From: an alpha proteobacterium AAP38 | Lineage (GTDB): Bacteria > Pseudomonadota > Alphaproteobacteria > Azospirillales > Azospirillaceae | Direction: 5' to 3' | Assembly (NCBI GenBank): GCA_001296005.1 | Contig: LJHR01000009.1 | Coordinates: forward strand, 186,001-250,000 | DNA: 64,000 nucleotides | In this document: in pieces, positions 1 to 64,000 of the stretch | Numbering within the stretch: the first letter of the stretch is position 1 | Layout: every line of letters starts with the position of its first letter | Program-made: the position numbers and the translations under genes | Notes under the pieces: model-generated | The model's input: the letters and a program-made list of their open reading frames with translations, nothing else | Database searches by the model: none | What the model was told of the DNA's origin: nothing

Positions 1-740
1 GCCCGCAGGAGCGGGACAGGGACCCGGACACGGGCCGCGCGATGGCCCACCGCATCCGCCGCGCAATCCAGCAGCGTTGCCCAGTCATAGCCGACGGTCA
101 CCCCGTCACACAGGGCATATTCCTGTCCCTGCGGTCCGCCGGGTTTGGCCAGGGCGGCGATGGCGTCGGCGGCATCTGCTACCTGTACCATGGCCAGCCT
201 CGCTTCCGACCCGCCCAGCACAGGCACGACAGGCCCGGCAGCGGCCTTGAATAGCGACAGGGTTTCGCGGTCCCAGGGGCCATAGATGGCGGGCGGGCGG
301 ATGATGCACCAGTCGGTGCCGCCATGGGCCGCCAGTGCCGCCACCTCTCCCGCCTGCTTACTGGCGGCATACTGGGACAGGTGCGGCTGGGTCGCGGCCT
401 GGCTGGAGATCAGCAGCAGTCGGGCGCGGGGCGCGTGGGTGGCGACGGCGCGACCGATGGAAGCCGAACCGCCCTCATTCACGGCGAAGAACTGCGCCCG
501 GTCTTTGGCCTTGATCAGGCCGGCGCCATGGATGACGACATCAGCACCCGTGACAAGTCTGGCCAGGGCCGCATCATCGCGTAGATCGCCCAGCACCAGT
601 TCGGGCCGGACATCGGCCAGCAGCGGATGCACCGGGTCCTGACGCACCAGCATACGGACGGCAAAGCCGGCGCGGTGCAGGGCCGCCACTATATAGCGGC
701 CCAGAAAGCCGGTGCCACCCGTTATGGCGGCGACCTTCAT
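1..740 (-). CDS. NAD-dependent epimerase/dehydratase (extended SDR), 3' end outside window; ceramide-reductase-like candidate
   Basis: The reading frame opens at an ATG at 740 on the minus strand and runs off the left edge, giving about 246 codons. The N-terminus MKVAAITGGTGFLGRY holds the GxxGxxG Rossmann motif for NAD(P). Further in come the SDR-type YxxxK (YAASK) and an IRPPAIYGP stretch typical of extended SDR epimerases. It starts two bases downstream of the stop of the acyl-AMP ligase gene, so the two are translationally linked. In Caulobacter an SDR of this type (CerR) reduces 3-keto-ceramide and sits beside an acyl-ACP synthetase. The same pairing here makes a ceramide reductase plausible, but that is inference; a sugar epimerase is the alternative. 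Confidence 0.85.
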   Translation of the reverse strand, partial: MKVAAITGGTGFLGRYIVAALHRAGFAVRMLVRQDPVHPLLADVRPELVLGDLRDDAALARLVTGADVVIHGAGLIKAKDRAQFFAVNEGGSASIGRAVATHAPRARLLLISSQAATQPHLSQYAASKQAGEVAALAAHGGTDWCIIRPPAIYGPWDRETLSLFKAAAGPVVPVLGGSEARLAMVQVADAADAIAALAKPGGPQGQEYALCDGVTVGYDWATLLDCAADAVGHRAARVRVPVPLLR

Positions 741-742
741 AA

Positions 743-2476
743 TCAGGCGGACAGTAGGGCGTTGGCGCCGAACTCACCGGCCAGCAGCATCTGCCGGGCC
801 TTGGTGCGTGACAGCTTGCCCGAAGAGGTCTGGGGCAGGGAGTGGGTGGGTACCAGCACCACCTTCACCTCCAGCCCATGGGCGGCACGCAGCACGCCCT
901 GCACCTGGGCCGCCAGGGCGGCGCGGGCTTCGTCCTGCGTCGGGCGGCACTGCACCAGCACCACCACCTGCTCTCCGCCATCCCCATCGACAGAGAAGGC
1001 AACGACGTCGCCGCTGCGCAAGCTGTCGATGGAATGTTCGGCGGACCATTCCAGATCCTGCGGCCAGATATTGCGGCCATTGACCAGGATCAGGTCCTTG
1101 GCCCGGCCCGTGATGACGATCTGCCCATCGCAGAGATAGCCCAGGTCGCCCGTATCCAGCCAGCCATCGGCGGACAGCACTGCCGCCGTTTCCTCCGGTC
1201 GGTTGAAATAATCGCGCATGAGTGACGGGCCGCGGGCGAACAGGCGGCCCACCTGCTTTTCGCCCAGCAGCTTGCCATCAGGATCGCGCACCTCAATGGC
1301 GTGGCCTGGCAAGACGGGGCCGTTCAGCACGAATTCACGCTCGCGCTCCGTCTGCGGACCCGGCGGTACGGCGACCGCGTCGCCTTCCAGCCGGTCGAGA
1401 TCAACACGGTCGGTGACCAGTCCGACACCCAGCGGTGCGAAGGACAGGGCCAGCGATGCCTCTGCCATGCCGTAGGAGGGGACCAGGGCGCCGGCGTTGA
1501 ACCCACGCGGGGCAAAGGTTTCCGCAAACTTGCGTAGCACGCGCGGACGCACCATGTCGCCGCCGATGCCGGCCCCGCGCCAGGTGGACAGGTCGATCCC
1601 TTCGGTCGAGGCCGTCTCCGCGCGCCGTGCCGCAAGCTCGTACCCGAAGCTGGGGCTGTAGGACAGAGTACCGCCATTGCGGGTGATCAGGTTCAGCCAT
1701 AGCAGCGGACGGCGGGCAAATTCACGGGTCGGCAGATAGTCGATGGAAACCTGACAGACCAGCGGGGTCAGCAGGAACCCGACCAGCCCCATATCGTGAT
1801 AGAGCGGCAGCCAGGAAACGCAGCGGTCAGCCGCCGTGATCTTCAAGCCATGATGGGTGATGGCATAGGCATTGGCCATCAGGGCACGCTGCGTCACGGC
1901 CACGCCCAGGGGGAAACGCGTGCTGCCCGACGAGAATTGCAGGTAACAGAGATCGTCGGGGCCAACGGTCGGCAACTCAATCCCCGCCCCGTCGACATCA
2001 TCGAACACGGCAAGCGTGCCCACGGCCTTCATGTCCAGGCCATCGGCGGCGGCCTTTACCCAGTCGGCCAGCGAGGCGGGCGACAGGACGGCGGCGGCAT
2101 CGGCCCCCTGCATCATGCGGCGAATATGCTCAATATAGGCGTCCTTGCCACCGAACGCCGCCGGCAGGGGCAGGGGGGCGGGGACGAGGCCCCCAAACTG
2201 GCACGCCGTGAAGGCGCGCATGAAGTCGCCGTCGCTTTCGGCGATGATGGCGACGCGGTCGCCCTTCACCAGCCCCTTGGCCAGCATCTTGCGGGCCAGC
2301 GACACGCCCTGTTCATACATCTGCGCGTAGGGCAGCGCCTCCGTCAGTTCACCCTTGCCGGAGTAGAAATTCAGGCCGGTCTCCCCGCGCGACGCGTATT
2401 CAATCGCTTCCGGCACCGTGGCAAAATCAGCCAGGCGGGAGGCGAGCGCATGCTTGGAAGGGGTGGGGCTGACCAT
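743..2476 (-). CDS. Fatty acyl-AMP ligase / acyl-ACP synthetase-like (ANL superfamily)
   Basis: A 577-residue adenylate-forming enzyme. The ATP-binding loop FSSGSTRFPLG is near residues 181-191. SYGMAEA, the DTGDLG aspartate, GRNIWPQDLE and a C-terminal SGKLSR lysine loop follow in the expected order. The GRN-x-x-PQD-x-E signature is typical of fatty acyl-AMP ligases rather than acyl-CoA synthetases. I chose the ATG at 2476 because the family is about 580 residues long; the frame stays open upstream to 2584, but those 36 residues do not look like the family. It would activate a fatty acid as acyl-AMP and load it onto an acyl carrier protein. No ACP is visible, so the partner may lie left of the window, as with AasR/AcpR in Caulobacter sphingolipid synthesis (inference). 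Confidence 0.88.
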   Translation of the reverse strand: MVSPTPSKHALASRLADFATVPEAIEYASRGETGLNFYSGKGELTEALPYAQMYEQGVSLARKMLAKGLVKGDRVAIIAESDGDFMRAFTACQFGGLVPAPLPLPAAFGGKDAYIEHIRRMMQGADAAAVLSPASLADWVKAAADGLDMKAVGTLAVFDDVDGAGIELPTVGPDDLCYLQFSSGSTRFPLGVAVTQRALMANAYAITHHGLKITAADRCVSWLPLYHDMGLVGFLLTPLVCQVSIDYLPTREFARRPLLWLNLITRNGGTLSYSPSFGYELAARRAETASTEGIDLSTWRGAGIGGDMVRPRVLRKFAETFAPRGFNAGALVPSYGMAEASLALSFAPLGVGLVTDRVDLDRLEGDAVAVPPGPQTEREREFVLNGPVLPGHAIEVRDPDGKLLGEKQVGRLFARGPSLMRDYFNRPEETAAVLSADGWLDTGDLGYLCDGQIVITGRAKDLILVNGRNIWPQDLEWSAEHSIDSLRSGDVVAFSVDGDGGEQVVVLVQCRPTQDEARAALAAQVQGVLRAAHGLEVKVVLVPTHSLPQTSSGKLSRTKARQMLLAGEFGANALLSA

Positions 2477-2651
2477 GGCGTACTGTTCCGAACAAGGGGG
2501 CGCGGGGCCCGAACCAGAGGATTGAATGCCGTTCACAGCGCGCAACGGCAAAAGCGTACCCCCAACATAGGGAAGTCCGTCCATGCCGGCTCATACCAGA
2601 GCGGGAGGTTTCGGGCAATCAGCGCGGATGTAGGGGCACCCTTGCCACCTG

Positions 2652-3779
2652 TCAAATGGAGCGGGACAGCCATTCCGCCAGCAGCGTCGCGTTATGCCGC
2701 CCTGGATTATTCACCGACAGGTCGAAATTCGCGGCAAAGGCCTGTTCCTGAACGGCCCGCCATTGCGGGTGGCTGGCGATGGCATCGTCCAGATGCATCA
2801 GCAGATCATCAGCCGTGTCCAGCACAGGCCCGAAGGTCCAGAACCGGTAATTGGCGTTGTCCCGCCAAGCGACGGCATGGGCGTTCAGGAACACGCATGG
2901 ACGCGGTTTGCACAGGAACTCATAGACCTGGCTGCTAACATCCCCGAGATAGAGGTCTGCTGCCATCGTGTAGGTCATGTCGCAACTGGCATCGCTGCCC
3001 AGATCAATGCGGATATGATCCAGCCCCCTGAATCGCTCAAACGCCGCCAGCTTGCCCGGCGTCACCGGGTCGAACAGCCGCATATGGGGTGCGAAAATCA
3101 GGTTGTAGCGGTCCTGGCGGGCCATGATCTCCAGAATCATCATGCCAAAGCGTGGCCAGGACCCCAGCGTTGTGGAGAAATGCGGGTTGTAGAGGATGGT
3201 GGGCCGGCCATTGGCGAACAGGGGGGGGCGTCCGCCCGCCAGCCGGTTTACCGCGTCGAACTTCGTGTAGGCGGAAACCGCATAGCGGTTCGCCGTCAGA
3301 TATCCGGCTTCCACCAGGCGTTGCGCACTTTTCGGGCTGGGGATCAGGTTGAAGTCGAACTTGGCGACGCGGGGGTCAAAGGTGACGTCCCGATCACCGG
3401 CGCCATGTTCGGTATTGATGAATTTGGGCCGCCTGACGCCGAACCGGCGCAGCAAGAGGCTGGTCTTGTCCGTCGACACCAGCGCGTCATAGGTATTCAG
3501 CATCCGGCGGTTATGGAACAGCGACCACGCCTTGGGCGGTACCGGCAAGGCGCGAAAACGCCGGTAGAGGCGAATGCCCAGCGGCTGCGGCATCAGGCGC
3601 AGGCTGACCCTGGCACCGGGATAAAGTGGGATGAATTGCTGGATGTAATCCAAGTGGCCCTGGCTGGGGGCCAGAATGTCCACCTGCCAGTCCGGCCGCA
3701 GAATGGACAGTTCCAGGGCCATCGGCAGGGAATGCAGGATCTGGTGACTCTGACTGTTGTAGAGAAACCCGATCCTCAT
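2652..3779 (-). CDS. CDP-glycerol glycerophosphotransferase-like / glycosyltransferase-like protein
   Basis: A 375-residue protein with a GT-B-like layout. The N-terminus MRIGFLYNSQSHQ resembles the start of surface-polymer transferases, NTEHGAGDRD lies near the middle, and the C-terminal half carries LYLGDVSSQVYEFLCKP. That last stretch matches the D-x-S-S-x-x-x-E donor-binding region of CDP-glycerol:glycerophosphotransferases. The start codon overlaps the stop of the flippase gene by four bases (ATGA), so the two are co-translated. Together they suggest assembly and translocation of a surface glycan or polyol-phosphate polymer. The acceptor and donor cannot be named. It may belong to the family only by fold. 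Confidence 0.65.
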   Translation of the reverse strand: MRIGFLYNSQSHQILHSLPMALELSILRPDWQVDILAPSQGHLDYIQQFIPLYPGARVSLRLMPQPLGIRLYRRFRALPVPPKAWSLFHNRRMLNTYDALVSTDKTSLLLRRFGVRRPKFINTEHGAGDRDVTFDPRVAKFDFNLIPSPKSAQRLVEAGYLTANRYAVSAYTKFDAVNRLAGGRPPLFANGRPTILYNPHFSTTLGSWPRFGMMILEIMARQDRYNLIFAPHMRLFDPVTPGKLAAFERFRGLDHIRIDLGSDASCDMTYTMAADLYLGDVSSQVYEFLCKPRPCVFLNAHAVAWRDNANYRFWTFGPVLDTADDLLMHLDDAIASHPQWRAVQEQAFAANFDLSVNNPGRHNATLLAEWLSRSI

Positions 3780-5173
3780 GCCTTGTTCCGCTCCTCCGCC
3801 ATCCGCTGCCGGAACCAGCGCACCACGGGCACCAGAAACGCGACAAGCACCAGGATGGCAGAGAACATGCGGGCCCAGCCGGCGCCAATCAAGCCAAACC
3901 AGTGGATGCAGGCCAGAAGGATCGGGATATAGAGCGTCGTCGTCCAGATGCGCACCATCAGCGCCTTGTGCGCCTCACCCGCCGAAACCATGACGGGTTC
4001 CAGCGGGAAGGACCAGATGCCGACCACGGCGGCGGCCACCAACCACATCATGACGGGCCAGGCGGGCACGAATTCCTCGCCCACGATCAGGCGCAGGCCG
4101 ATTTCCCCGATGAACCAGCAGATGACCAGCGCCAGCATGGCACCGGCCCCGGCCAGCAGGGCCGAACGCTGGATCAGGGACCGCATTTCCCCGAACTGCC
4201 GCGCCTCGATCATGCGCGACAGTTCCGGGTAGATGGCGGGGATCAGCAGCTTGGCCGGCTTGGCCAGCGCCTCCCCGAGTTGCCGGGCGATGCGGAACAA
4301 GGCGGCGTCGCGCGGGCCCAGCATCCAGCCGACGGCCAGCGTGCCGATATGGGTGTAGGCCAGTTCCAGGGTGGAGGAGAGGTTGGTGGACCAGACGAAA
4401 CTCCATACCCCATCGAATCCATGGCTCATCGGTTTGCCGTCGCCGCGCCAGCTATACCCGTCCAGCAGGCCACGCTTGCGCAGTTCTGACCAGCCCTTGG
4501 CGATCAGATAGATGCCGGCGACGGCGGTGGCGACGTACCAAGCCACCAGGAAGGCTACAATGCTGCCGCCCATGATCCAGGCGATGCCGCCGCCCACCAT
4601 GCGGATGATGGCGCCCAGCGTGCTTTGCACCGACAGGATGTCGAACCGGTCGATCAGCCGCAGGATGCCCGTGGGCGTGGCCTGCACCATGAACAGAACC
4701 GAGGTGACATAGATCAGCGCCGCCGGCATCAGGTCCGCCGGCCAGCCGAAGGATGCCCCCAACGCCCAGGCAACGGCCACCGACAGGAAGGTGCCGGCGA
4801 TGGCACTCCACCCGTCCAGATGGGCTGTGAATCGCAGCAGGCGCTGGAAATCGCCGATCCGCCCTTCATTCAAGGCCGGCGTGCCATAGCGCAGGACGGC
4901 CTGCCAGCTCTGGAATTTCGCGATCTCACCAATGGTCTGGGTGAAAGTGTGGATCAGGACCAGGATGCCGAACTGTTCCACGCCCAGCGCGCGTGCCGCG
5001 ATGGCCAGACCTGCCAGGCCGGCAATGGCGTTGACCGTCTTGCCGCCCAGCAGGATGCCGGCATTGGCGAACAGACGGCGCAGGCGGTCATCGCCAAACC
5101 AGGATTTGAGGGGGGAACGGAACGTCTTACGGGCCACGTGTCGAGCTGTCTGAAATGGGTATGCCCTGCCCAT
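3776..5173 (-). CDS. Wzx-like polysaccharide/lipid flippase (MOP superfamily)
   Basis: A 465-residue integral membrane protein with about twelve hydrophobic segments. The N-terminus has the usual NAGILLGGKTVNAIAGL helix, followed by ARALGVEQFGIL, a hallmark of oligosaccharide flippases of the RfbX/Wzx type. Such proteins move undecaprenyl- or lipid-linked sugars from the cytoplasmic to the periplasmic face of the inner membrane. It is the first gene of a two-gene unit with the glycerophosphotransferase-like gene. The ATG at 5173 is the only start that keeps the basic cytoplasmic leader. No Wzy polymerase or Wzz chain-length regulator is visible in the window. Confidence 0.85.
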   Translation of the reverse strand: MGRAYPFQTARHVARKTFRSPLKSWFGDDRLRRLFANAGILLGGKTVNAIAGLAGLAIAARALGVEQFGILVLIHTFTQTIGEIAKFQSWQAVLRYGTPALNEGRIGDFQRLLRFTAHLDGWSAIAGTFLSVAVAWALGASFGWPADLMPAALIYVTSVLFMVQATPTGILRLIDRFDILSVQSTLGAIIRMVGGGIAWIMGGSIVAFLVAWYVATAVAGIYLIAKGWSELRKRGLLDGYSWRGDGKPMSHGFDGVWSFVWSTNLSSTLELAYTHIGTLAVGWMLGPRDAALFRIARQLGEALAKPAKLLIPAIYPELSRMIEARQFGEMRSLIQRSALLAGAGAMLALVICWFIGEIGLRLIVGEEFVPAWPVMMWLVAAAVVGIWSFPLEPVMVSAGEAHKALMVRIWTTTLYIPILLACIHWFGLIGAGWARMFSAILVLVAFLVPVVRWFRQRMAEERNKA

Positions 5174-7001: not shown

Positions 7002-7616
7002 TCAAAGCCGGCGCCACAGGGTGGCCAGCCATTCCTGCCGGTGACGGGGTAATCCTTCGGGCCGGCGCCAATCGGCCAGCAGGGTGAACCCAGCCCCCTT
7101 CACCGCCGCCTTCCAGCTTTGCGGGCGGCGAAAGGCCAGATAGCGGCCATCGGTGGCCAAGCCTTCCATGCCATCGCCGGTGGGATCGCAGGCATAGAAA
7201 ACACCGCCGGGTCGCAGCCAGTTCCCCACCCGATGCAGAACATGCGCAAGGGCGATGTCCGGCAGGTGGAAGAACAGATGATGGGCCCATATCCCGTCGA
7301 ACGAATGATCCATCCAGGGCGCGCGATCGGCAGACAGCAGGTCCAGCACATGCACCGTACACCCCGTCTGTTGTGCGGCGATAGCGGCCAGGGCGGGGCT
7401 GCCGTCGGCCCCGATTGCCAGGGCGCCTGCTTCCCGGAAGCCGGCAAGGTCCCGCCCGGCGCCGCATCCCAGGTCCAGAATGGCGGGCGCTTGGCAGTCG
7501 ATAGTCGTCAGGAACCGTTGCCTTGCACCGGCGCTGTCATGATCGGCCAAGTGACTGGCATAATGCGCGGCATGCGCGCTGTAATGGGCGAGCGTGGGGT
7601 TCGCTGCCCGCCCCAT
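7002..7616 (-). CDS. Class I SAM-dependent methyltransferase
   Basis: 204 residues from the ATG at 7616. That ATG overlaps the stop of the upstream gene (TGATG), which decides the start against an upstream in-frame extension to 7736. Motif I reads ILDLGCGAGRD (SAM-binding glycine loop), followed by an acidic GADGSP, a post-motif FDGIWAHHLFFHL and the motif LRPGGVFY. The nearest general family is Methyltransf_11/25. It is the last gene of an operon with a Tam41-like cytidylyltransferase, a lipid kinase and a CDP-alcohol phosphatidyltransferase. A role in modifying a lipid head group is therefore possible but unproven. Confidence 0.85.
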   Translation of the reverse strand: MGRAANPTLAHYSAHAAHYASHLADHDSAGARQRFLTTIDCQAPAILDLGCGAGRDLAGFREAGALAIGADGSPALAAIAAQQTGCTVHVLDLLSADRAPWMDHSFDGIWAHHLFFHLPDIALAHVLHRVGNWLRPGGVFYACDPTGDGMEGLATDGRYLAFRRPQSWKAAVKGAGFTLLADWRRPEGLPRHRQEWLATLWRRL

Positions 7617-8551
7617 CAGCGGATGACCCCCATCCGCTTCAGCTTCCACAGGATGCCAGGGGCCGACAGGATGGGGTGGCGCCGCTGCCATGGCGTCAGG
7701 TCCAGGCGCACACCGGAATGACGGTGCAGCTTCCACAGCAGGTAATCGACCCCGCCGGTGAAGGTAAAGGCCGCCTTTACCAGACGGGCGACGTTCAGCA
7801 CCTTGCCGAACCGTCCGCGCCAGTCCCAGGCACTGGCCGCCCTTGCCCGTTCAGCCGGCGACAGAAGTGGGTGCAGGCGACCATCGGGTCGTTCCTCAAA
7901 CGGAACCCGTGCCGATGCCCATGCAGGGGGCAGCAGGGCCGTGTAGCGGTCGGCGGCATGGTCCACGATGCTGACCCCGCGGGATGCCTTCTCCACACGC
8001 AGTTCGGCGCTGTAGGTGGCCTTGAACAGGGCCTCCCAGTAATCGCGTGCCGTACCCTCGGCGGGACCCAGCAACGCGGCCCAGCGGGTCGCCGTCGTGA
8101 CCGCCTGGGCCACGGCGGCCCGAACCTGCCGGCGGGCGGCTGCGTCGCGGGTGTGGGCCAGCATCACCGGCTGGGTGAACCGCGCCCAAATGGTGGTGTC
8201 CATGCCGTCAAAACGGGTGCTGCGCGCGAACTGGTCAATGCCCATCACGGCTACCTTGGCCCGCAAGGTGTTGCCCTGCCATGGCACTTCCCAATATTCC
8301 ACGCTGGGCGGCAGCAGGCGTGTGGCGGCTGCCAAAGGGCGGCTGTCGCGCCAGCCCGTCAGACTGTCCACCAGCACATAGAAATCCAGCAGCCCCTCGA
8401 CATCGCCCGTCCGCAGGTTGGAGCCGTAGAACAGCACCGAAGCGACATTGTCCCCGCCATGCGCCAGCAGCGCCGCCACCAGGGCGGCGGCGGGTGCGGG
8501 CAGGGGCAGGTCCCATTCCTGGTCAATCAGGGTGGAAAGTGGGTCGGTCAC
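7616..8551 (-). CDS. Tam41-like phosphatidate cytidylyltransferase family protein
   Basis: A 311-residue protein with a GTG start at 8551 that overlaps the stop of the lipid-kinase gene (GTGA). VLFYGSNLRTGDVEGLLDF at about residues 39-57 has the G-S and aspartate spacing of a pol-beta-type nucleotidyltransferase active site. The layout downstream follows mitochondrial Tam41: a VEYW strand, then FTQPVML where Tam41 has GRLHKPV, then an AVTTATRW helix and an FKATYSAELRVE segment matching Tam41's LSYSGDxR. Tam41 makes CDP-diacylglycerol from CTP and phosphatidic acid in mitochondria. I have only recalled sequence patterns, not an alignment. The classical CdsA is also present at the other end of the window, which argues for a different lipid substrate here. 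Confidence 0.65.
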   Translation of the reverse strand: MTDPLSTLIDQEWDLPLPAPAAALVAALLAHGGDNVASVLFYGSNLRTGDVEGLLDFYVLVDSLTGWRDSRPLAAATRLLPPSVEYWEVPWQGNTLRAKVAVMGIDQFARSTRFDGMDTTIWARFTQPVMLAHTRDAAARRQVRAAVAQAVTTATRWAALLGPAEGTARDYWEALFKATYSAELRVEKASRGVSIVDHAADRYTALLPPAWASARVPFEERPDGRLHPLLSPAERARAASAWDWRGRFGKVLNVARLVKAAFTFTGGVDYLLWKLHRHSGVRLDLTPWQRRHPILSAPGILWKLKRMGVIR

Positions 8552-9501
8552 GGCTGAACGAATTGGATGCTGTCATGGGCGGACAGGATGACACGGCCCG
8601 CAGGATACGTCTCCCCATCCATGATCAGGGGGCGGGTCAGGTGCAGTTCGATCCGTTCCGCCCCGCCCGACCGATAGGCACCCGCGTTGCGCATGCCGGC
8701 GCTGGGCCGCCCCGTCATCAGGCGCGGCAAGGCACCCAGCAGGCCGGGTGGACTGGCCGCCACATCCAGATAGCGCAGGGGACGCGTGCCATGATCCCAG
8801 AAGGGCCACAGCCCCATGATCAGCTTGTCGAGCGTCGTCGCCAGGAACAGGAAGCGGTTGCCGTCCAACGCCGGGCTGTCATCGACCGTTGCCGTGAAAG
8901 GCTCACCCGCCAGCCAGCCATGGCTGTCATTGCCGATCAAGGCCCGGCCCAGAACACCGGCCATGGTCAGCACCACGGCAATTTCCTGGGTGAAGCCGGC
9001 CTTGTGGATGGCGGCATTGGCAAGGTCGGTGCCACGCGTGAAGGCGCCGGCCCCCATGAACATGCCGCGCACTGGCCCATGTTCCCCGTCGGGCCAGTGC
9101 AGCGACAGGATGGGCCGCTGCGTGGTGCGGGTGCCCAGCGTCCCCTCGTGCGCTGCCCGCACCAGTCCGGCCAACCCGCGAGGGCCATAGCCGTGGGTGC
9201 CGACATCGGCGGCGATCAGGTTGGTCTTGCCTGCCGCCAGGATGGCCAGCGCCGGGCTTGCATCGCCATATGCGTGGGGCAGGGCGGTCAGCACCTCCCG
9301 CACGGTCCCGTCACCACCATCCACCGTGATGATATCCACCCCGCCATCGGCAAAGCCGCGCAGGGCCTGCACCAGCTTTTCCGGCGTGTCAGGCGATGCC
9401 ACATGGCTGCCGAACAGGCGCGCGGCATCCGCCGGCAAATCACCGGCCCCCGCCTTGTTCCGGTGGCTGAACGGATTACGGATAAGACCCGGACGCGCCA
9501 T
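8548..9501 (-). CDS. Lipid kinase of the diacylglycerol/ceramide/sphingosine kinase fold
   Basis: 317 residues. The N-terminal strand LIRNPFSHRNKAG and the ATP-binding VDGGDGTVREVL (GGDGT at about residues 62-66) identify the DAGK catalytic domain. ILAAGKTNLIAAD occupies the place of the usual PxGTxNxxA motif with changes, so it is a divergent member. It sits between a CDP-alcohol phosphatidyltransferase (six bases upstream) and the Tam41-like gene (four-base overlap). In Caulobacter a low-similarity kinase of this fold, CpgB, phosphorylates ceramide. Given the ceramide-type genes on both sides, ceramide is my first guess for the substrate, diacylglycerol or undecaprenol the second. Confidence 0.82.
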   Translation of the reverse strand: MARPGLIRNPFSHRNKAGAGDLPADAARLFGSHVASPDTPEKLVQALRGFADGGVDIITVDGGDGTVREVLTALPHAYGDASPALAILAAGKTNLIAADVGTHGYGPRGLAGLVRAAHEGTLGTRTTQRPILSLHWPDGEHGPVRGMFMGAGAFTRGTDLANAAIHKAGFTQEIAVVLTMAGVLGRALIGNDSHGWLAGEPFTATVDDSPALDGNRFLFLATTLDKLIMGLWPFWDHGTRPLRYLDVAASPPGLLGALPRLMTGRPSAGMRNAGAYRSGGAERIELHLTRPLIMDGETYPAGRVILSAHDSIQFVQP

Positions 9502-9507
9502 GATGGA

Positions 9508-10680
9508 TCAGGCGGACAGGTAGGAGGTGATGGGGCCCTTCTTGGACGCCTGTTCGGCCTGAACGATTTGCGCCATATGCACGCCGAAGCAGGCCGCGAT
9601 CCAGAAGACCACCAGTGCCATGCCGATATCCGGGCGGCCCAGTAGGGTGGCCAGCGTCAGGATCACCAGATTGGGGTTGCGCCGCGCCGTGATCAGCCGG
9701 AAGAAGCTGTCGAACGGGCGCCAGGTGTGCATGTCGATCTTGAAGCGCTTGATGAAATAACCTTCCTGCAAACGCTGCGACACATAGCCGGCCCAGATGA
9801 CGATCAGGGCGAAGATCTCGCCCCCCGGCATGGTGAAGCCCGCCGCCGACAGGCCCGCGACCCAGGCCCACCACCAGAAGGGCGGGTGGACCAGATCAAT
9901 GCCATGGTCGAAGATGTTGCCCCACTTGCTGCTGGTCAGCGTCACGCGCGCCAGCTTGCCATCGACCGTGTCCAGGAAGGTCATGACCCAGCCGGCGGCA
10001 AGACCGGGCAGGTAATGTCCCTCCGCAAACAGCCAGAGCGCCAGCAGCATCAGGACGGCACCGATGCCCGTCACCATGTTGGGCGACAGGCCCAGCACGG
10101 CGCATAGCTTGGTCACGTGCCGAGCCGGCAGCGGCCAGACATATTTGGTGATGACGTCAGTGACGCCCTTATAGCTGCCGGCGAACATGCGCTGTTCGAT
10201 CTTGGGCAGGGCTTCGGGCGTCAGGCGCAGCAGGAACGGGGTTTCGCGCTTGCGCAGCGCGTGATTGTAGGAGGAGGAGAGATCGTCCGGCACCAGGACA
10301 CGCAGCCGGGCCGCCAGATTAGCGGGAACGATTCGGCTGCTGTTCAGCATCTCCGCCACTTCGGCGGCATCCTCGGCGGACACATGCGCCGCCACAGGCT
10401 CCTGATTGCGGCTGTCCACCAGGATGGTGCCCGGCCGCTTGGCCAGATCACGCACCAGCACTTCGTCAAACACCCAGTCGGTGCGCAGCAGCAGCTGTGA
10501 ACGGCCATGATCCAGCCCGTCCCAGGCCCGGACCTCCGTCACGCCATTGCGCACGCATTGGCGGCGCAGGCGTTCGGCGGAACTCATGCCCCACAGGCGA
10601 ACGGGATTGTCGCCGATGGTGGCGGCCATGGGCGGGGTGGTTTCAGCGGCGTGATTGTCGGCGGACAAGGCGTGAACCAT
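9508..10680 (-). CDS. CDP-alcohol phosphatidyltransferase with degenerate N-terminal nucleotidyltransferase-like domain
   Basis: 390 residues. The membrane half carries a complete CDP-alcohol phosphotransferase signature, D237-x2-D240-G-x2-A-R-x8-G254-x3-D258-x3-D262, surrounded by hydrophobic helices. The first 170 residues resemble the nucleotidyltransferase half of fused cytidylyltransferase/CDP-alcohol transferases such as the inositol-phosphate enzymes of thermophiles, but the N-terminal glycine-rich NTP loop is missing. The enzyme would join a CDP-activated group to an alcohol acceptor, forming a phosphodiester lipid. It is the promoter-proximal gene of the four-gene minus-strand operon and is divergent from a metallophosphoesterase. 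The substrate pair is not evident from sequence. Confidence 0.85.
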   Translation of the reverse strand: MVHALSADNHAAETTPPMAATIGDNPVRLWGMSSAERLRRQCVRNGVTEVRAWDGLDHGRSQLLLRTDWVFDEVLVRDLAKRPGTILVDSRNQEPVAAHVSAEDAAEVAEMLNSSRIVPANLAARLRVLVPDDLSSSYNHALRKRETPFLLRLTPEALPKIEQRMFAGSYKGVTDVITKYVWPLPARHVTKLCAVLGLSPNMVTGIGAVLMLLALWLFAEGHYLPGLAAGWVMTFLDTVDGKLARVTLTSSKWGNIFDHGIDLVHPPFWWWAWVAGLSAAGFTMPGGEIFALIVIWAGYVSQRLQEGYFIKRFKIDMHTWRPFDSFFRLITARRNPNLVILTLATLLGRPDIGMALVVFWIAACFGVHMAQIVQAEQASKKGPITSYLSA

Positions 10681-10763
10681 GATCAGGTTGGTTTGTTGAT
10701 GGTCTACATACTCCCAGACGCGGGCTTTGCCTATCGCCTGTAAGGCATTGTAGCTTGGCTTTC

Positions 10764-11675
10764 ATGCAGCCCTTCCGCTTCGCCCACCTGTCCGATCCGC
10801 ATCTGCCGCTGGAACCCGACCGTCCGAAGGGGCTGGAATGGCTATCCAAGCGCACATTGTCCTATCAATCATGGCAGCGTAAACGCCGCCACGCCCATAC
10901 GCCTGCCATGCTGTCCGCCATCGTCGCCGATATCAGGGCGCAGGGCGTGGACCATTGGGCCGTGACGGGCGACATCGCCAATATCTCCCTGGCGGGGGAG
11001 TTCCAGCGCGGGGCCGTCTGGCTGCGGACCCTGGGGGATGGGCGGGATGTGTCCTATGTCCCCGGCAACCATGACGCCATGGTGCATGTGCCCTTCGCCG
11101 ATGGTCTGGGCCTGTGGGCGGATTACATGATGGGTGATGGTCAGGGGGAGGCGGCTTTCCCCTATCTGCGGCAGCGTGGGTCCGTTGCCTTTATCGGGGC
11201 CAATTCAGGTGTGCCGACCAAGCCGCTGCTGGCACAAGGGTCCTTGGGGCGGGAGCAGTTGGAACGGCTTGGCGATATGCTGGCCGATGCCGGGCGGCGC
11301 GGGCTGTTCCGGGTACTTATGGTGCATCATCCCGTGGTCGATGGGGTGGTATCGGGGCGCAAGGGCCTGACCGACCGGCGGGAACTGCGCCACCTCCTGT
11401 CGCGCACGGGGGCGGAGATGCTGCTGCATGGTCACGCCCATGTCGCCAACCTGTCGATGATCAAGGGGCCCAAGGGGCCGATCCCCAGTCTGACGGTGCC
11501 ATCAGCTTCCGCCATCGGTTATCGACATGACATGCCCGCCCGCTGGCACCTTGTGACGGTGGACACAGACGGCCCGGACTGGCGGGTGCAGGTGGAGGTT
11601 CGTGGCGTGGAACGCCGCGACGGGCCGGTCACCGCGCTGGGCGGCTGGACGCTTCGGCTGCCTGCCACGTTGTAG
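10764..11675 (+). CDS. Calcineurin-like metallophosphoesterase
   Basis: 303 residues from the ATG at 10764; an in-frame TTG nine bases upstream is less likely. The metal-binding blocks appear in order: FAHLSDPHL (D-x-H), VTGDIAN (GD), VPGNHDAM (GNHD), VMVHHPVV (H) and LLHGHAHV (GHxH). Such enzymes hydrolyse phosphomonoesters or diesters. The position, divergent from the CDP-alcohol transferase operon and first in a run of envelope genes, suggests removal of a phosphate from a lipid intermediate, for example a glycerophosphate head group. LpxH-like activity is an alternative, but the protein is longer than LpxH. Confidence 0.88.
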   Translation: MQPFRFAHLSDPHLPLEPDRPKGLEWLSKRTLSYQSWQRKRRHAHTPAMLSAIVADIRAQGVDHWAVTGDIANISLAGEFQRGAVWLRTLGDGRDVSYVPGNHDAMVHVPFADGLGLWADYMMGDGQGEAAFPYLRQRGSVAFIGANSGVPTKPLLAQGSLGREQLERLGDMLADAGRRGLFRVLMVHHPVVDGVVSGRKGLTDRRELRHLLSRTGAEMLLHGHAHVANLSMIKGPKGPIPSLTVPSASAIGYRHDMPARWHLVTVDTDGPDWRVQVEVRGVERRDGPVTALGGWTLRLPATL

Positions 11676-11779
11676 GCTTGTGGGCGGATACGGTCCTGTC
11701 ACCGGATAATGGTGGTTCCGGTCCCCTCTGTTCCGCACTAAAGTGCCTGTCTCTTTTGTCCTCCAGAGTGCCACACCCT

Positions 11780-12226
11780 ATGACCCAGCCCAATGCCACC
11801 ATGCTGAAATTCGGCTATCCGGCCAGCGTCGTGGCGGAGACGGCCCTGTGGTCGGTGCAGGTACGGCCGCAGCAACCGGCCCTTGGCTCCCTTGTTCTAG
11901 TCTGCAAGGAACCGGCCACCGCCTTCGGGCAGTTGACGCCGGCTGCGTTCGCAGGGCTGCAGGAAGTGGTGGCGCGGGTGGAGACGGTGCTGACCCGGTT
12001 CACCGCCTATCAGAAGATCAATTACCTGATGTTGATGATGGTGGACCCCGACGTGCATTTCCACGTGATCCCCCGGTATGAAGGCGCGCGGGACTATCGC
12101 GGCGTCAGCTTCCCCGATGCCGGCTGGCCCGGTCCCCCGGCGCTGGGCCAGGCGGTGGCGCCGGATGCCGATATGCTGGCGGCGCTGACTGCCGATCTGA
12201 AGGCATTGTGGGTGGATGTGACGTGA
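11780..12226 (+). CDS. HIT family nucleotide hydrolase/transferase
   Basis: 148 residues from the ATG at 11780. The C-terminal half holds the histidine-triad stretch DVHFHVIPRY. The canonical pattern is H-x-H-x-H-x-x; here the first histidine is aspartate while the middle (nucleophilic) and third positions are kept. HIT proteins cleave nucleoside phosphoramidates or dinucleotides through a nucleotidyl-histidine intermediate. The stop overlaps the GTG start of lptF by four bases, so the gene is co-translated with the LPS exporter subunits. Its role in this envelope operon is unknown. Confidence 0.85.
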   Translation: MTQPNATMLKFGYPASVVAETALWSVQVRPQQPALGSLVLVCKEPATAFGQLTPAAFAGLQEVVARVETVLTRFTAYQKINYLMLMMVDPDVHFHVIPRYEGARDYRGVSFPDAGWPGPPALGQAVAPDADMLAALTADLKALWVDVT

Positions 12227-13473
12227 ACGGTTCGCCGCTGCCGTCAGAACGGCAATACAAGCTTCACTCCACGCGGCTGATCGACCGCTATATCCTGACC
12301 GAGACGCTGAAGCCCTTGTTCGCGTCGCTCCTGGTCGTGCTGGTGGCGCTGCTGATGGAGCGGCTGCTACGGCTGTTCGACCTGCTGGCCAATCATGGCG
12401 GGCCGTTCGACATGGTCATCCGGCTGGTCGCCAATCTGGTGCCGCATTATCTGGGGCTGGCCCTGCCGGCGGCGTTCTTCATCTCCATGTTCATCATCGT
12501 CGCCCGGATGGGGGAGGATAATGAACTGGACGCGTTGCAGTCGGCGGGTCTGTCGGTGCCGCGCATCGCCCGGTCCTTCCTGGGGCTGGGCGTGGCGCTG
12601 ATGGTGTTTTCCATCATCCTGTTCGGCTATCTCCAGCCCTATGGCCGTTATGGCTACAGCGCCATCTATCACATGGTGGTCAATGCGGCCTGGGATGCGA
12701 CGGTGCCGCAAGCCACCTTTGTCGATGCCGGCGAGGGTGTGACCATCTCCGCCGATATGGTGGACCCGACCGGGCGCCGATTGGAAAAGGTGTTTGTGCA
12801 GCAGGACCGCGACAATGGTGAGAAGTGGGTGACCACGGCTGTCACCGGCGCCCTGGCTGCCACACCCGATCGGCAGCGGGTGCTGGTCACCCTGCATGAC
12901 GGGGTGCAGGTGCGCGTGCTTCCCGATGGCCGCCGGCAGGTGATGGAGTTCGGGGAAATGACCCTGGACAAGCCGTTCCGGCTGGTCACCGAACCTTTCC
13001 GCGAACGTGGCGGCAGCGAGCGTGAACTGACCTTGCATGAGCTATGGTCGGAAATGCACGACCCGCAATCGATCCTGCCCTTTAACAAGGTGCGGTCGGA
13101 ACTGCATGCGCGGCTGGCCCGGTCACTGTCATTGCCGCTGCTGCCATTGCTGGCCGTGCCGATGGGCATGGCGGCGAAGCGGGCGCGGCGTGGGCAGGGG
13201 ATCGCGTTGGCGACCCTGATCCTGATCATCTACCATCATCTGATACAGTTGGGTGAAAGCCTGGGTGATGTCGGGCGTCTGCCGCCCAGCATCGGCATCT
13301 GGGTGCCGTTTGGCCTGTTCTGCCTGCTGTGCGGCTGGTTGTTCCACCGCGCCGATGTGCGGCCGGGCGAGAACCCGTTCGCGGCGATGTTCGATGTCAT
13401 CGACAATGTCACGGGCTTCATCGGTCGCCTGTTCAAGCGCCGAAAGAAGAAGGCGGGGGGGGCCAAGCCATGA
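12223..13473 (+). CDS. lptF: LPS export ABC transporter permease LptF
   Basis: 416 residues from a GTG at 12223 that overlaps the upstream stop. The N-terminus LIDRYILTETLKPLF and the first helix match LptF/LptG permeases. A large periplasmic beta-jellyroll domain (about residues 120-280) lies between the N-terminal and C-terminal transmembrane bundles, and LPLLPLLAVPMGMAAKRARRG is the conserved coupling region. With LptG and LptB it extracts LPS from the inner membrane and passes it to LptC. The neighbours lptD, surA and pepA often seen beside this pair are absent. Here the pair sits between a HIT protein and a lipid hydroxylase. Confidence 0.93.
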   Translation: MNGSPLPSERQYKLHSTRLIDRYILTETLKPLFASLLVVLVALLMERLLRLFDLLANHGGPFDMVIRLVANLVPHYLGLALPAAFFISMFIIVARMGEDNELDALQSAGLSVPRIARSFLGLGVALMVFSIILFGYLQPYGRYGYSAIYHMVVNAAWDATVPQATFVDAGEGVTISADMVDPTGRRLEKVFVQQDRDNGEKWVTTAVTGALAATPDRQRVLVTLHDGVQVRVLPDGRRQVMEFGEMTLDKPFRLVTEPFRERGGSERELTLHELWSEMHDPQSILPFNKVRSELHARLARSLSLPLLPLLAVPMGMAAKRARRGQGIALATLILIIYHHLIQLGESLGDVGRLPPSIGIWVPFGLFCLLCGWLFHRADVRPGENPFAAMFDVIDNVTGFIGRLFKRRKKKAGGAKP

Positions 13474-14549
13474 ACCGCAGCACCATCACCCGTTATCTGA
13501 CCCGCACTTTCCTGGTCCGCGTTCTGTCGGTTCTGTTCGCGCTGTCGGCGCTGTTGCAACTGCTTGACCTGCTGGATGCCGCGTCGACGGTTCTGGAGCG
13601 TGGGCTGGGCGGCGGCGGTCTGGCCTATTACACGATGATCCGCCTGCCCATGGTGATGGAGCGGGTGGTGCCGTTGGCCGTGCTGATCGGCTCGCTGTCC
13701 ACCCTATGGACCTTTGCCTCCACGAACGAGATCGTGGCCATGCGGTCGGTCGGCATGACGCCATACCAGATCATGGGCGCGCTGCTGCCGGCGGCCTTGG
13801 TCATTTCCATCGCCCATTTCATCATGGCCGATCAGGTGGCCCCGCGCTGCGAACGCGCCTTCGTCAGCTGGTGGACGGCGACGGAACTGCCGTCGGAAAA
13901 GAAGGATGATGACCCGGTGAAGCCGGTCTGGTTCCGGCTGGGCGATCATGTCGTGCGGATCGGCAGTATTTCCGATGATGGCAAGCATATCTATGAGATG
14001 GAGATGGTTACCCGCGATGCGGACGGCAAGGCGACGGGCCTGATGTCGGCGGTTAGCGGTGACCATGGCCGCGATGGTTGGCAATTGTCAGGCGTGGTCC
14101 GGACCGAGATCGGGGAGCCGCTGCGCGTGACGCAGGATGACAAGCTCCGCTGGGATGTGGACCTGTCGCCCAACAATATGATCGACCTGCGCAAGCCGCC
14201 GGAGAATATCCCCTTCAACCGGCTGCTGCGCATCGTGCGGGGTAGCTGGGCTGGCGGCGAAAGCCCCACCTACTATGCTACGCGCCTGCATTCCACCTAT
14301 GCGGCACCGCTGGCGTCGCTGGTCATGCTGCTGCTGGCGGCACCCGTTGCGCACGGCATGCGCCGGCGCGGTGGGGCCATGGGCAGTCTGGCATTGGGCA
14401 CCGTCATCGGCCTGATTTTCCTGCTATCCTCTGGCATTCTAAGCTCCATGGGGCAGGCGGGTGCCTTGCCGCCGGTGATGGCGGTCTGGTCACCGCTGGT
14501 CCTGTTTGCCGCCATTGGCGGGGCCATCATGGTCTATGTGGAAGGATAG
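13470..14549 (+). CDS. lptG: LPS export ABC transporter permease LptG
   Basis: 359 residues from the ATG at 13470, overlapping the lptF stop by four bases. It begins MNRSTITRYLTRTFLVRVL, as LptG does. Six transmembrane helices frame a periplasmic domain (about residues 125-255). The coupling region near FASTNEIVAMRSVGMTPYQI and the C-terminal APVAHGMRRRG match the family. It is the second half of the LptFG heterodimer. Its stop is followed by 117 bases without a recognisable gene before the hydroxylase gene. Confidence 0.93.
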   Translation: MNRSTITRYLTRTFLVRVLSVLFALSALLQLLDLLDAASTVLERGLGGGGLAYYTMIRLPMVMERVVPLAVLIGSLSTLWTFASTNEIVAMRSVGMTPYQIMGALLPAALVISIAHFIMADQVAPRCERAFVSWWTATELPSEKKDDDPVKPVWFRLGDHVVRIGSISDDGKHIYEMEMVTRDADGKATGLMSAVSGDHGRDGWQLSGVVRTEIGEPLRVTQDDKLRWDVDLSPNNMIDLRKPPENIPFNRLLRIVRGSWAGGESPTYYATRLHSTYAAPLASLVMLLLAAPVAHGMRRRGGAMGSLALGTVIGLIFLLSSGILSSMGQAGALPPVMAVWSPLVLFAAIGGAIMVYVEG

Positions 14550-14666
14550 GGCGGTACGGTGTCGCATTGCGGCATCGCCCTTGAAGACCGGTCCTTCGGG
14601 GCCTAATTTGACGCCACGGTTAATGGGCCGGATGGCCTGTTCGATGATTTGGGAAAGGGTAGGGGC

Positions 14667-15449
14667 ATGTGGGGCGATGCCTGGCGCGGCCGCAGCTATG
14701 ACCTCGGCAAGATGAACCTGCGGGAATTGGCGTTTGCCTATTCCACATATCCGGCCATCCAGGCCTATGCGGCCCTGGCGCTCGCCTCTGCCGTGCTGGC
14801 GGTGATCTGGACGGAGAATTGGGGCCTGATGGCGCTGACCGTGCTGGTCGCGACCTTCATCTATCCGATGGCCTGGTACCTGATCCACCGCTACATCCTG
14901 CACGGTCGCTGGCTGTACCGCATGAAATGGTCCGCCGCCCTGTGGAAGCGCATCCATTTCGACCATCACCAGGACCCGCACAAGCTGGAAGTGCTGTTCG
15001 GCAGCCTCGCCAACACCCTGCCCACCATCGCCCTGGTGACGGTGCCTGTCGGTTACCTGATTGATGGCAAGGCGGCGGCGGCAACGGCGCTGGCCACGGG
15101 CCTGTTCACCACCTGCATCTATGAATTCTTCCACTGCATCCAGCACCTGAACTACAAGCCGACCTGGAACTGGGTGGCGCGGATCAAGCAGCTGCACCTG
15201 TATCACCATTTCCATAATGAGGATGGCAATTACGGCATCATCTCCTATGGTCCCGACATGCTGCTGGGCACCTTCTACCGCGAGGCGAAACAGAAGCCGC
15301 GCAGCCCGACCGTGTTCAACCTGGGCTATGATGTGGAAGAGGCCGGGCGCTATCCCTGGGTCATGGAACTGACCGGTTCACCGCCGCGTGACCGGCCACC
15401 GCGCCCGCCCGCAGCGGGCAACAGCGACGGCGTGAAGGCTGCATCTTGA
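14667..15449 (+). CDS. Fatty acid hydroxylase / sterol desaturase family di-iron membrane enzyme
   Basis: 260 residues from the ATG at 14667, preceded by AAAGGGTAGGGG. The histidine boxes of the superfamily are all visible: HRYILH (74-79), HFDHH (97-101), HCIQH (156-160) and HLYHHFH (177-183), between hydrophobic helices. These enzymes insert a hydroxyl group or double bond into membrane lipids. The stop overlaps the start of the GNAT acyltransferase gene, so the two are co-translated. If the acyltransferase is a ceramide synthase, this could be a sphingoid-base or fatty-acyl hydroxylase of the kind that gives 2- or 4-hydroxyceramides. The substrate is inference. Confidence 0.85.
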   Translation: MWGDAWRGRSYDLGKMNLRELAFAYSTYPAIQAYAALALASAVLAVIWTENWGLMALTVLVATFIYPMAWYLIHRYILHGRWLYRMKWSAALWKRIHFDHHQDPHKLEVLFGSLANTLPTIALVTVPVGYLIDGKAAAATALATGLFTTCIYEFFHCIQHLNYKPTWNWVARIKQLHLYHHFHNEDGNYGIISYGPDMLLGTFYREAKQKPRSPTVFNLGYDVEEAGRYPWVMELTGSPPRDRPPRPPAAGNSDGVKAAS

Positions 15450-16600
15450 GCGGCGGCCAGGGCGGGGACGCCGGCATCCGTATTGAACAGGTGGTGCCCG
15501 GTTCCAAAGGTGTGGACCGCTTCATCGCCCTGCCATACCGGCTGCATCAGGGGGACCCCAACTGGGTCCCGCCCTTGTTCATGGAGCGGCAGGAAACCCT
15601 GTCGCCCAAGACCAATCCCTATTTCCTTCATGCCGATGTCATGTACTTCCTGGCCCTGCGGGGGGACCGGGTGGTGGGCCGCATTTCGGCGCAGATAGAC
15701 CGCGCAGGCCTTGAAATTCGCAAGGATGCAATGGGCCATTTCGGCCTGCTGGCGGCAGAGGATGATCAGGCGGTGGTCGACGCCCTGTTTGCGGCGGCGG
15801 CGGACTGGCTGCGTGCCCGTGGCATGGTGCGCATGGTCGGGCCCTTCAATCTGTCGATCAATGAGGAAACGGGCCTGCTGGTCAATGGCTGGGACCGGCC
15901 ACCCATGCTGATGATGGGCCATGACCGCGCCTATCTGGGCCCCCGGATCGAAGGGGCAGGACTGGTCAAGGCCAAGGATGTCTACGCCTATCTCTACGAC
16001 ATCGAACGCGACATGCCCTCGGCGGTTCGTCAGATGATCGACCGGCCCCTGCCGTCCAATCTGACGCTGCGCATGCTGGATATGAAGCGTTATGAGGAAG
16101 ATCTGGGCCACGTCACCAGCATCTTCAACAATGCCTGGTCCGGCAACTGGGGTTTCGTGCCGCTGTCGGAGGCCGAGACCAAGCAGATGGCGAAGTCGCT
16201 GAAGCTGCTGATCAATCCCAAGCTGGCCTGGATTGCCGAAGTGGATGGCAAGCCGGTGGCCTTTGGTGTTTGCCTGCCGAACTTGAACGAGGCCATTGCA
16301 GACCTTGGTGGCAAGCTGTTCCCGTTCGGCATCTTCAAGATGCTGTGGCGGTTGAAGGTGGCGGGTGTGAAGACGGCGCGTGTTCCCCTGATGGGGGTGC
16401 GGCGCGACGTTGGTGGCTGGCTACAGGCCATTCTGCCCTTCCTAGTGGTCGACCGTATGCGCCTGGAAGCACGCAAGCTGGGCTATGAGTGGATCGAGCT
16501 GTCCTGGATTCTGGAAGACAATCGACCCATGCGCCGCATGATTGAGGCAATCGGGTCGGATCGCTACAAGACCTACCGTCTGTATGAGCGCGCGTTGTGA
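15446..16600 (+). CDS. Large GNAT-fold acyltransferase; bacterial ceramide synthase-like candidate
   Basis: 384 residues from a TTG at 15446 that overlaps the hydroxylase stop. No ATG occurs near the expected N-terminus, and in-frame GTGs at 15491 and 15494 are alternatives. Recognisable stretches are LPYRLHQGDPNWVPPL, a KTNPYF block, GPFNLSINEETGLLV and a C-terminal WILEDNRPMRR. This is the architecture of long GNAT proteins to which the Caulobacter ceramide synthase (bCerS) belongs: a split acetyltransferase fold much longer than a typical 150-residue GNAT. In that role it would acylate 3-ketosphinganine. The assignment rests on family resemblance and neighbours, without an alignment. Confidence 0.7.
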   Translation: MSGGQGGDAGIRIEQVVPGSKGVDRFIALPYRLHQGDPNWVPPLFMERQETLSPKTNPYFLHADVMYFLALRGDRVVGRISAQIDRAGLEIRKDAMGHFGLLAAEDDQAVVDALFAAAADWLRARGMVRMVGPFNLSINEETGLLVNGWDRPPMLMMGHDRAYLGPRIEGAGLVKAKDVYAYLYDIERDMPSAVRQMIDRPLPSNLTLRMLDMKRYEEDLGHVTSIFNNAWSGNWGFVPLSEAETKQMAKSLKLLINPKLAWIAEVDGKPVAFGVCLPNLNEAIADLGGKLFPFGIFKMLWRLKVAGVKTARVPLMGVRRDVGGWLQAILPFLVVDRMRLEARKLGYEWIELSWILEDNRPMRRMIEAIGSDRYKTYRLYERAL

Positions 16601-17370
16601 CGGGCATGACGACCCTGGTTCTGGCGGGATCGCGGGGACCGGAGGATCCGGTGGCAAAGCTGATGGGCGTCAGCCACAAGGCCTTTGCCCCCATCGCCGG
16701 TGTGCCCATGCTGGTGCGTGTGGTGCGTGCGCTGACCGCATCGCCTTGCGTCGGCATGATCCATATCGCCATTGAGCGGCCCGAACTGGTGGAACAGCAC
16801 CCGGAGCTGGGCTTATTGCTGGCCGGCGGGCGCATTGCGTTGCTGCCGGCGGAAGGCAGCCCCAGTCGCAGCGTGTCGGCAGCGCTGGAGACGCTGGGCA
16901 CGCCCTTGTTCGTGACGACCGCAGATCATGCGCTGTTGCGCCCGGAATGGGTGGATCATTTCCTGACGCATCTGCCGGACGGGACCGATGTCTGCGTCGG
17001 TCTGGCGCGTGACAGCGTGATCCAGGCGGCGGTGCCGGAGACGAAGCGCACCTATCTGCGCTTTGCCGACGGGGCCTTCTCCGGCTGCAACATGTTCGCT
17101 TTCCGCACGCCCGCCGCCGCCGGTGTGGCCCGCACATGGCGGCAGGTGGAGGCCCAGCGCAAGCATCCGCTGCGCATGATCCGCCTGCTTGGCCCACTGT
17201 CGATCCTGCGCTTCTTGCTGGGTCGCTTGACCCTGACCGCCGCCCTGGCCCGTCTTGGCCGGATCACGGGGGCCAGGGCAGGGGTGGTGGAAATGCCCTT
17301 CGGTCTGGCCGCCGTCGATGTGGACAAGGCGGCGGATGTGGAACTGGCAGAACGGCTGCTGTCGGTGTGA
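16597..17370 (+). CDS. MobA-like nucleotidyltransferase (NTP_transf family)
   Basis: 257 residues; a GTG at 16597 overlaps the previous stop (GTGA) and an ATG lies at 16606. The N-terminus TTLVLAGSRGPEDPVAK is the NTP-binding loop of the MobA/IspD-type fold, with the usual LAGGxG changed to LAGSRG. KAFAPIAGVPMLVRVV and a VTTADHALL strand follow. The family transfers NMP to phosphorylated sugars, polyols or cofactors. As the last gene of the lipid run, it may activate a head group as a CDP derivative. It could also supply the nucleotidyltransferase function that appears incomplete in the CDP-alcohol transferase at 9508-10680. Confidence 0.75.
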   Translation: MTGMTTLVLAGSRGPEDPVAKLMGVSHKAFAPIAGVPMLVRVVRALTASPCVGMIHIAIERPELVEQHPELGLLLAGGRIALLPAEGSPSRSVSAALETLGTPLFVTTADHALLRPEWVDHFLTHLPDGTDVCVGLARDSVIQAAVPETKRTYLRFADGAFSGCNMFAFRTPAAAGVARTWRQVEAQRKHPLRMIRLLGPLSILRFLLGRLTLTAALARLGRITGARAGVVEMPFGLAAVDVDKAADVELAERLLSV

Positions 17371-63503: not shown

Positions 63504-64000
63504 ATGGACAGCCAGACGCCCAACAAGAAGCCTCGGTCCAATTTCACGCAGCGCGTGATCTCCGCCATTGTCCTGGCACCGCCCGTGCTGGGGGCGGTCT
63601 GGTGGGGTGGGGTGCCGTTTCAGGTGCTGATGATGGTGGCGGTGGCGCTGTCCGCCTGGGAATATGCTCGCCTCGCTGTGCCGGGACAGCCCAAGGCCGT
63701 TTCACTCCTGTTGGTGGGCGTGCTGCCTCTTCTGGCCAACTCCATCATCTATCAAGATGATAGTGCTGGTGTGCGGGTCATTGTGATGTTGCCCGTTTTT
63801 GGGGCACTACTTTATGCCGTGGCCAAGTCACTGCGCTTCCCCAATCCCCGGCTCTTCGTCTTCGGACTGCCCTATGTGGCCTTTCCCTTCCTGTCGATGT
63901 ATTGGCTGCGCCTGGAGAGCGGCCCTTACGGCCTGGCGCTTTTCCTGTTCCTGCTGCTGTCCATCTGGGCCACCGATATCGGGGCCTATGCGGCGGGCAA
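63504..64000 (+). CDS. cdsA: Phosphatidate cytidylyltransferase CdsA, cut by the right edge
   Basis: About 165 residues are visible from the ATG at 63504 (a GTG at 63501 is adjacent). A basic leader is followed by several hydrophobic segments, and the frame is still open at 64000. The last visible stretch, SIWATDIGAYAAG, is the CdsA membrane motif containing the conserved aspartate. CdsA makes CDP-diacylglycerol for phospholipid synthesis. The gene position after uppS is the standard one. Confidence 0.93.
   Translation, partial: MDSQTPNKKPRSNFTQRVISAIVLAPPVLGAVWWGGVPFQVLMMVAVALSAWEYARLAVPGQPKAVSLLLVGVLPLLANSIIYQDDSAGVRVIVMLPVFGALLYAVAKSLRFPNPRLFVFGLPYVAFPFLSMYWLRLESGPYGLALFLFLLLSIWATDIGAYAAG

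Follow-up and report, generated by a model that had tools for sequence, protein, structure and literature searches.

The window analysed here, a 64,000-nucleotide stretch of a contig from the alphaproteobacterium AAP38, carries the cluster of genes listed in Table 1. Three of these, named cpgA, cpgB and cpgC after their Caulobacter orthologs, lie on the minus strand and, according to the ORF list, are transcribed in that order; read directly from the sequence, a 6-base gap (9502-9507) separates cpgA from cpgB, and cpgB and cpgC share a 4-base GTGA overlap (8548-8551), which bears out the tight three-gene arrangement described in a first-pass annotation of this DNA. The lipid kinase and the CDP-alcohol transferase that this annotation had recognized were recovered as well, in that the cpgB product carries a GGDGT motif and matches Pfam DAGK_cat (E=4.2e-10), and the cpgA product matches CDP-OH_P_transf (E=7.7e-9) and retains an intact D-x2-D-G-x2-A-R-x8-G-x3-D-x3-D motif (DTVDGKLARVTLTSSKWGNIFDHGID). 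A separate CdsA had also been reported and is represented by a fragment at 63504 (CTP_transf_1, E=3.9e-16). A methyltransferase-domain gene runs into the 3' end of cpgC and shares up to 121 bases with it; such a gene adjoins cpgC in each of the three genomes of the genus and is absent from the other loci examined.

Table 1. Features of the locus, with related genes of other loci in the last row
Feature	Position	Strand	Basis and remarks
cerR ortholog (CC_1164), SDR	1-773	-	synteny; gene continues past left window end
aasR ortholog (CC_1165), acyl-ACP synthetase	743-2584	-	57% identity, same neighbours
CC_1167 ortholog, TagF-like	2652-3779	-	43% identity; weak PF04464 match (CDP-glycerol glycerophosphotransferase), 17.5 bits, cut-off 22.1
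CC_1166 ortholog, flippase	3776-5173	-	Polysacc_synt; 40% identity
methyltransferase-domain gene	7002-7736
cpgC ortholog (CC_1161), putative Tam41-like nucleotidyltransferase	7616-8551	-	311 aa, GTG start; 47-50% identity to C. vibrioides protein, same order
cpgB ortholog (CC_1160), predicted ceramide kinase	8548-9501	-	317 aa, ATG start; DAGK_cat; 36-38% identity to Caulobacter protein adjoining cpgC
cpgA ortholog (CC_1159), predicted CDP-alcohol phosphotransferase with AF2299-like N-terminal domain	9508-10680	-	390 aa, ATG start; 54% identity
CC_1158 ortholog, metallophosphoesterase	10755-11675	+	Metallophos; 43% identity, same position
CC_1157 ortholog, HIT-family protein	11678-12226	+	59% identity, same position
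lptF2 (CC_1156 ortholog), putative sphingolipid transport	12208-13473	+	LptF_LptG, E=1e-74; synteny
lptG2 (CC_1155 ortholog)	13329-14549	+	LptF_LptG, E=1e-69; synteny; real start probably downstream of 13329
fatty acid hydroxylase-family protein	14649-15449	+	FA_hydroxylase; recurs in cluster of other genomes
cerS ortholog (CC_1154), ceramide synthase	15446-16600	+	55% identity, same position; GNAT
CC_1153 ortholog, MobA/CofC-like nucleotidyltransferase	16597-17370	+	NTP_transf_3; 45% identity
second CDP-alcohol transferase paralog (other loci)	L045 3528-4931; L047 16112-17326; L049 2675-3913; L050 16124-17338; L066 6136-7530

The phosphosphingolipid cluster of Caulobacter crescentus spans CC_1168-CC_1152 (PMC11324152). 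In C. vibrioides DSM 9893, which was located by means of a published cpgD primer and served as the synteny reference, the genes for the TagF-like protein and the flippase, aasR, cerR, acpR and spt are followed by cpgC-cpgB-cpgA on the opposite strand and then by genes for the phosphoesterase and HIT protein, lptF2, lptG2, cerS, CC_1153 and cpgD. Orthologs of 15 cluster genes are found here (32-66% identity), and cpgC-cpgB-cpgA together with the run to their right stand in identical order; by contrast, the block spt-acpR-cerR-aasR-tagF-like-flippase is inverted relative to cpgC, mlaA, a TSUP gene and the methyltransferase gene lie between this block and cpgC, a fatty acid hydroxylase gene precedes cerS, and cpgD maps to the same contig at a distance of about 122 kb (G000:C62:64038-64772, product 63% identical). 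With acpR and spt immediately left of the window, orthologs of the ceramide genes aasR, cerR, acpR, spt and cerS are all present and syntenic (43-66% identity), as are, in the source genome, orthologs of cpgA, cpgB, cpgC, cpgD and CC_1153. The same gene order is found in several other families besides Caulobacter, and a chance arrangement is thus excluded. Judged by its sequence, the locus is a Caulobacter-type pathway for anionic phosphosphingolipids, with cpg genes orthologous to cpgB, cpgC and cpgA; the gene-for-gene synteny with C. vibrioides answers the neighbourhood comparison that the first-pass annotation had suggested, the SDR, acyl-AMP ligase, hydroxylase and GNAT genes that it took for ceramide-type flanks are confirmed, and its idea of a lipid set distinct from CdsA is supported in the form of a sphingolipid set flanked by ceramide-gene orthologs. 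As an ortholog of a described pathway the system is ordinary.

Identity and position assign the nucleotidyltransferase gene downstream of cerS to CC_1153, and its identification as cpgD was rejected. The HIT-family gene CC_1157 and the TagF-like gene CC_1167 are both called probably unrelated to the pathway in PMC11324152. The TagF-like gene was also rejected here as a universal part of the pathway, because 10 of the 289 genomes carry it and two of these lack cpgC; the source genome has a second TagF-like copy on contig C20. Enzymes of the PF04464 type take CDP-glycerol-type donors, and a link between the TagF-like protein and CDP-glycerate is therefore possible.

Caulobacter CpgB is a demonstrated ceramide kinase that makes ceramide-1-phosphate and, in vitro, phosphorylates diacylglycerol as well (PMC10331486). 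The protein encoded here is its ortholog by position, with the same neighbours, the same domain and the GGDGT motif, and is thus a probable ceramide kinase, in line with the Caulobacter precedent invoked in the first-pass annotation. A kinase homolog was found in all 35 cpgC-bearing genomes, in a few of them at a distance from cpgC, where it may be a paralog.

For CpgC, direct searches with the 311-aa protein gave no match in Pfam, NCBIfam or PDB. One CpgC homolog exceeds the cut-off of the Tam41 model PF09139 (28.8 bits vs 24, residues 87-222), another, from elsewhere in the phylum, falls below it (21.8 bits), and most of the homologs scanned gave no match; over 299 genomes of the phylum, the only match to PF09139 was below threshold and was itself a CpgC relative. 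The CpgC family was assembled as 34 full-length homologs, including the window protein and the Caulobacter protein. Profile and single-homolog searches of PDB yielded no Tam41 and only weak nucleotidyltransferase or unrelated matches. A 15-sequence alignment shows Y42-G43-S44, D56, K99, W122-x-R124-x2-Q127-P128, E183-x-R185-x-E187, K259, T263-F264, Y270, K274 and H278 to be invariant; D56 is the sole acidic residue conserved throughout near the YGS motif, with no second invariant acid nearby, and Tam41 retains one of the three acidic residues of its fold (review, PMC11646218). Foldseek placed Tam41 with CTP first among 350,542 chains (E=0.15, nearly full-length alignment), a result that carries little weight because the single-sequence AlphaFold model used as the query is poor (pLDDT 43). 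CpgC thus resembles Tam41/TAMM41, the mitochondrial CDP-diacylglycerol synthase, in that some homologs share a stretch of about 135 residues with the Pfam model, in a YGS motif with one acidic residue and in not being, unlike CdsA, a multi-pass membrane protein; it differs in its sphingolipid setting and in the lack of a Pfam match for the window protein itself, for which reason we label it Tam41-like rather than file it as Tam41. The best reading of the protein is a remote Tam41 relative, so that the Tam41-like cytidylyltransferase of the first-pass annotation stands by way of its homologs, the HMM check on the protein itself having found nothing.

Serine palmitoyltransferase (SPT), the absence of which from the genome had been named as an argument against a ceramide pathway, is encoded at 184113-185327 on contig C62, and that argument falls away; across the sample, SPT was found in all 35 cpgC-bearing genomes vs 1 of 11 cpgC-less genomes tested. 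The sphingolipid setting makes ceramide-1-phosphate the likely substrate of CpgC, and a role as a CTP:ceramide-1-phosphate cytidylyltransferase making CDP-ceramide is plausible, supported by the homolog above the PF09139 cut-off, the single invariant acid and the occurrence of CpgC only with SPT in the sample. Formation of a nucleotide-activated ceramide by CpgC is not a new idea; it was proposed in 2024 in PMC11324152, where CC_1161 is noted to carry a CDP-diacylglycerol-synthase InterPro domain. The literature searched yielded no assay of either CpgA or CpgC, and no paper that combines CDP-ceramide with related terms.

The first-pass annotation let the three genes form a complete line, in which the kinase and CpgC would supply CDP-ceramide and CpgA would condense it with an alcohol; in the present setting this alcohol would be glycerate or phosphoglycerate. 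The three genes are indeed adjacent or overlapping, the CDP-alcohol motif of CpgA is intact, and among the PDB relatives of CpgA are phosphatidylinositol-phosphate synthases, which are known to take CDP-diacylglycerol as donor. A survey of 289 genomes of the class argues against such a line: cpgC occurs in 34 genomes, and cpgA and cpgD (the latter set off by a distinct gap in E-values, from 3e-60 to 4e-27) occur in an identical set of 20, all within the 34 (Fisher p=7e-10 within the cpgC genomes, treating genomes as independent though they are related). Mapped onto the cpgC tree, the cpgA/cpgD pair switches between present and absent 7 times, and well-supported branches force at least 4 of these changes. 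The other 14 cpgC genomes have CpgB and CpgC with neither CpgA nor CpgD, and their loci show no ORF with a CDP-alcohol motif within about 10 kb on either side of cpgC, or about 20 kb in all (less at contig ends), and neither a conserved replacement transferase nor any other recurring enzyme gene. Zymomonas mobilis, too, reportedly lacks CC_1159 (PMC11324152). Furthermore, Caulobacter without cpgA still makes ceramide phosphoglycerate (CPG) (PMC11324152); CpgB and CpgC are needed for CPG, and CpgA and CpgD for the di-phosphoglycerate lipid CPG2 (PMC11324152, PMC12275187). A line confined to the operon is thus unlikely, and the role of CpgA as CDP-ceramide consumer was not upheld.

The identical distribution of CpgA and CpgD, together with the 14 further genomes that have CpgB and CpgC but neither of them, indicates that the donor used by CpgA is most likely CDP-glycerate rather than CDP-ceramide. 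The CpgA profile matches the AF2299 and IPCT-DIPPS enzymes in PDB, and the donor of DIPPS is CDP-inositol, a CDP-activated small polar alcohol. As in these enzymes (PDB 4o6m, 4mnd), the CDP-OH domain of CpgA is preceded by an N-terminal cytoplasmic domain; however, the match of the N-terminal part, at about 4 bits, is weak, and a different donor and a different acceptor are expected. In Caulobacter, CpgD has been demonstrated to be a CTP:phosphoglycerate cytidylyltransferase that makes CDP-glycerate, and use of this donor by CpgA to convert CPG to CPG2 has been proposed (PMC12275187).

We thus consider it fairly probable that the pathway consists of two modules. In the core module, CpgB would turn ceramide into ceramide-1-phosphate (as shown in Caulobacter, PMC10331486), CpgC would move CMP from CTP onto ceramide-1-phosphate to give CDP-ceramide, and an enzyme outside the operon would convert CDP-ceramide to CPG. 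In the extension module, the distantly encoded CpgD would make CDP-glycerate (as shown in Caulobacter, PMC12275187), and CpgA would transfer phosphoglycerate from CDP-glycerate to CPG to yield CPG2; by taking its donor from CpgD, CpgA would belong to a separable second module outside the CDP-ceramide line. For the full conjunction of CDP-ceramide synthesis by CpgC, its use by a transferase outside the cluster and a separate CDP-glycerate elongation module of CpgA and CpgD, the chances appear evenly balanced. Of the order ceramide, ceramide-1-phosphate, CDP-ceramide, ceramide-phospho-alcohol put forward earlier, the kinase step is retained and the cytidylyl step is plausible, while the third step is not assigned to the transferase of the operon.

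The CC_1153-type gene follows cpgC rather than cpgA and cpgD: it is present in 33 of the 34 cpgC genomes, the exception being an 82% complete genome, and nowhere else among the 289, and 13 of the genomes that carry it lack cpgA and cpgD. The closest solved structure to its product is the hypothetical protein TTHA0179 (2dpw). In Caulobacter, a CC_1153 mutant reportedly loses CPG2 and accumulates CPG and ceramide (PMC11324152); the distribution fits badly with the published assignment to the step from CPG to CPG2, and either cpgA-less genomes extend the head group otherwise or the step of CC_1153 lies earlier in the pathway than the mutant phenotype indicates. This distribution, along with the lack of any other conserved transferase gene near cpgC, would suit a scheme in which CpgC itself joins ceramide-1-phosphate to a nucleotide-activated glycerate from the CC_1153-type enzyme, giving CPG directly. 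We regard this scheme as quite improbable, since Tam41 and its fold transfer nucleotides rather than alcohol phosphates, the condensation would give two phosphates whereas CPG has one, and CPG still accumulates in the CC_1153 mutant. That CpgC is a Tam41-type phosphatidate cytidylyltransferase providing extra CDP-diacylglycerol, as the name of the Tam41 Pfam family and the in vitro activity of CpgB on diacylglycerol might suggest, is very improbable given that CdsA is already present, that cpgC is always accompanied by SPT and a ceramide-kinase-like gene and that Caulobacter cpgC mutants lose phosphosphingolipids (PMC11324152).

If the CDP-ceramide core of the two-module pathway is correct, bacteria possess a sphingolipid counterpart of the route through CDP-diacylglycerol; its central idea, a nucleotide-activated ceramide, is already published. 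Phosphosphingolipids can substitute for lipopolysaccharide in Caulobacter and determine polymyxin sensitivity. The exact pairing of CpgA with CpgD, and that of the CC_1153-type enzyme with CpgC, separates two modules that can be tested and points to a missing transferase; the module split and this transferase are both worth following. Genome G244 (locus L041), the nearest cpgC relative of Caulobacter on the tree, has cpgB and cpgC and neither cpgA nor cpgD, and setting it against C. vibrioides would be a natural way to approach the chemistry of lipids with CPG only.

Two further genes recur in subsets of the loci. Six cpgA-less loci (L038, L041, L043, L044, L046 and L053), three of them from one genus, encode a small, apparently secreted protein near cpgB and cpgC, which may be DUF2141-like. 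In five genomes, a second CDP-alcohol transferase paralog (33-36% identity to CpgA; Table 1) lies between lptG2 and the hydroxylase gene and perhaps represents a third head-group step.
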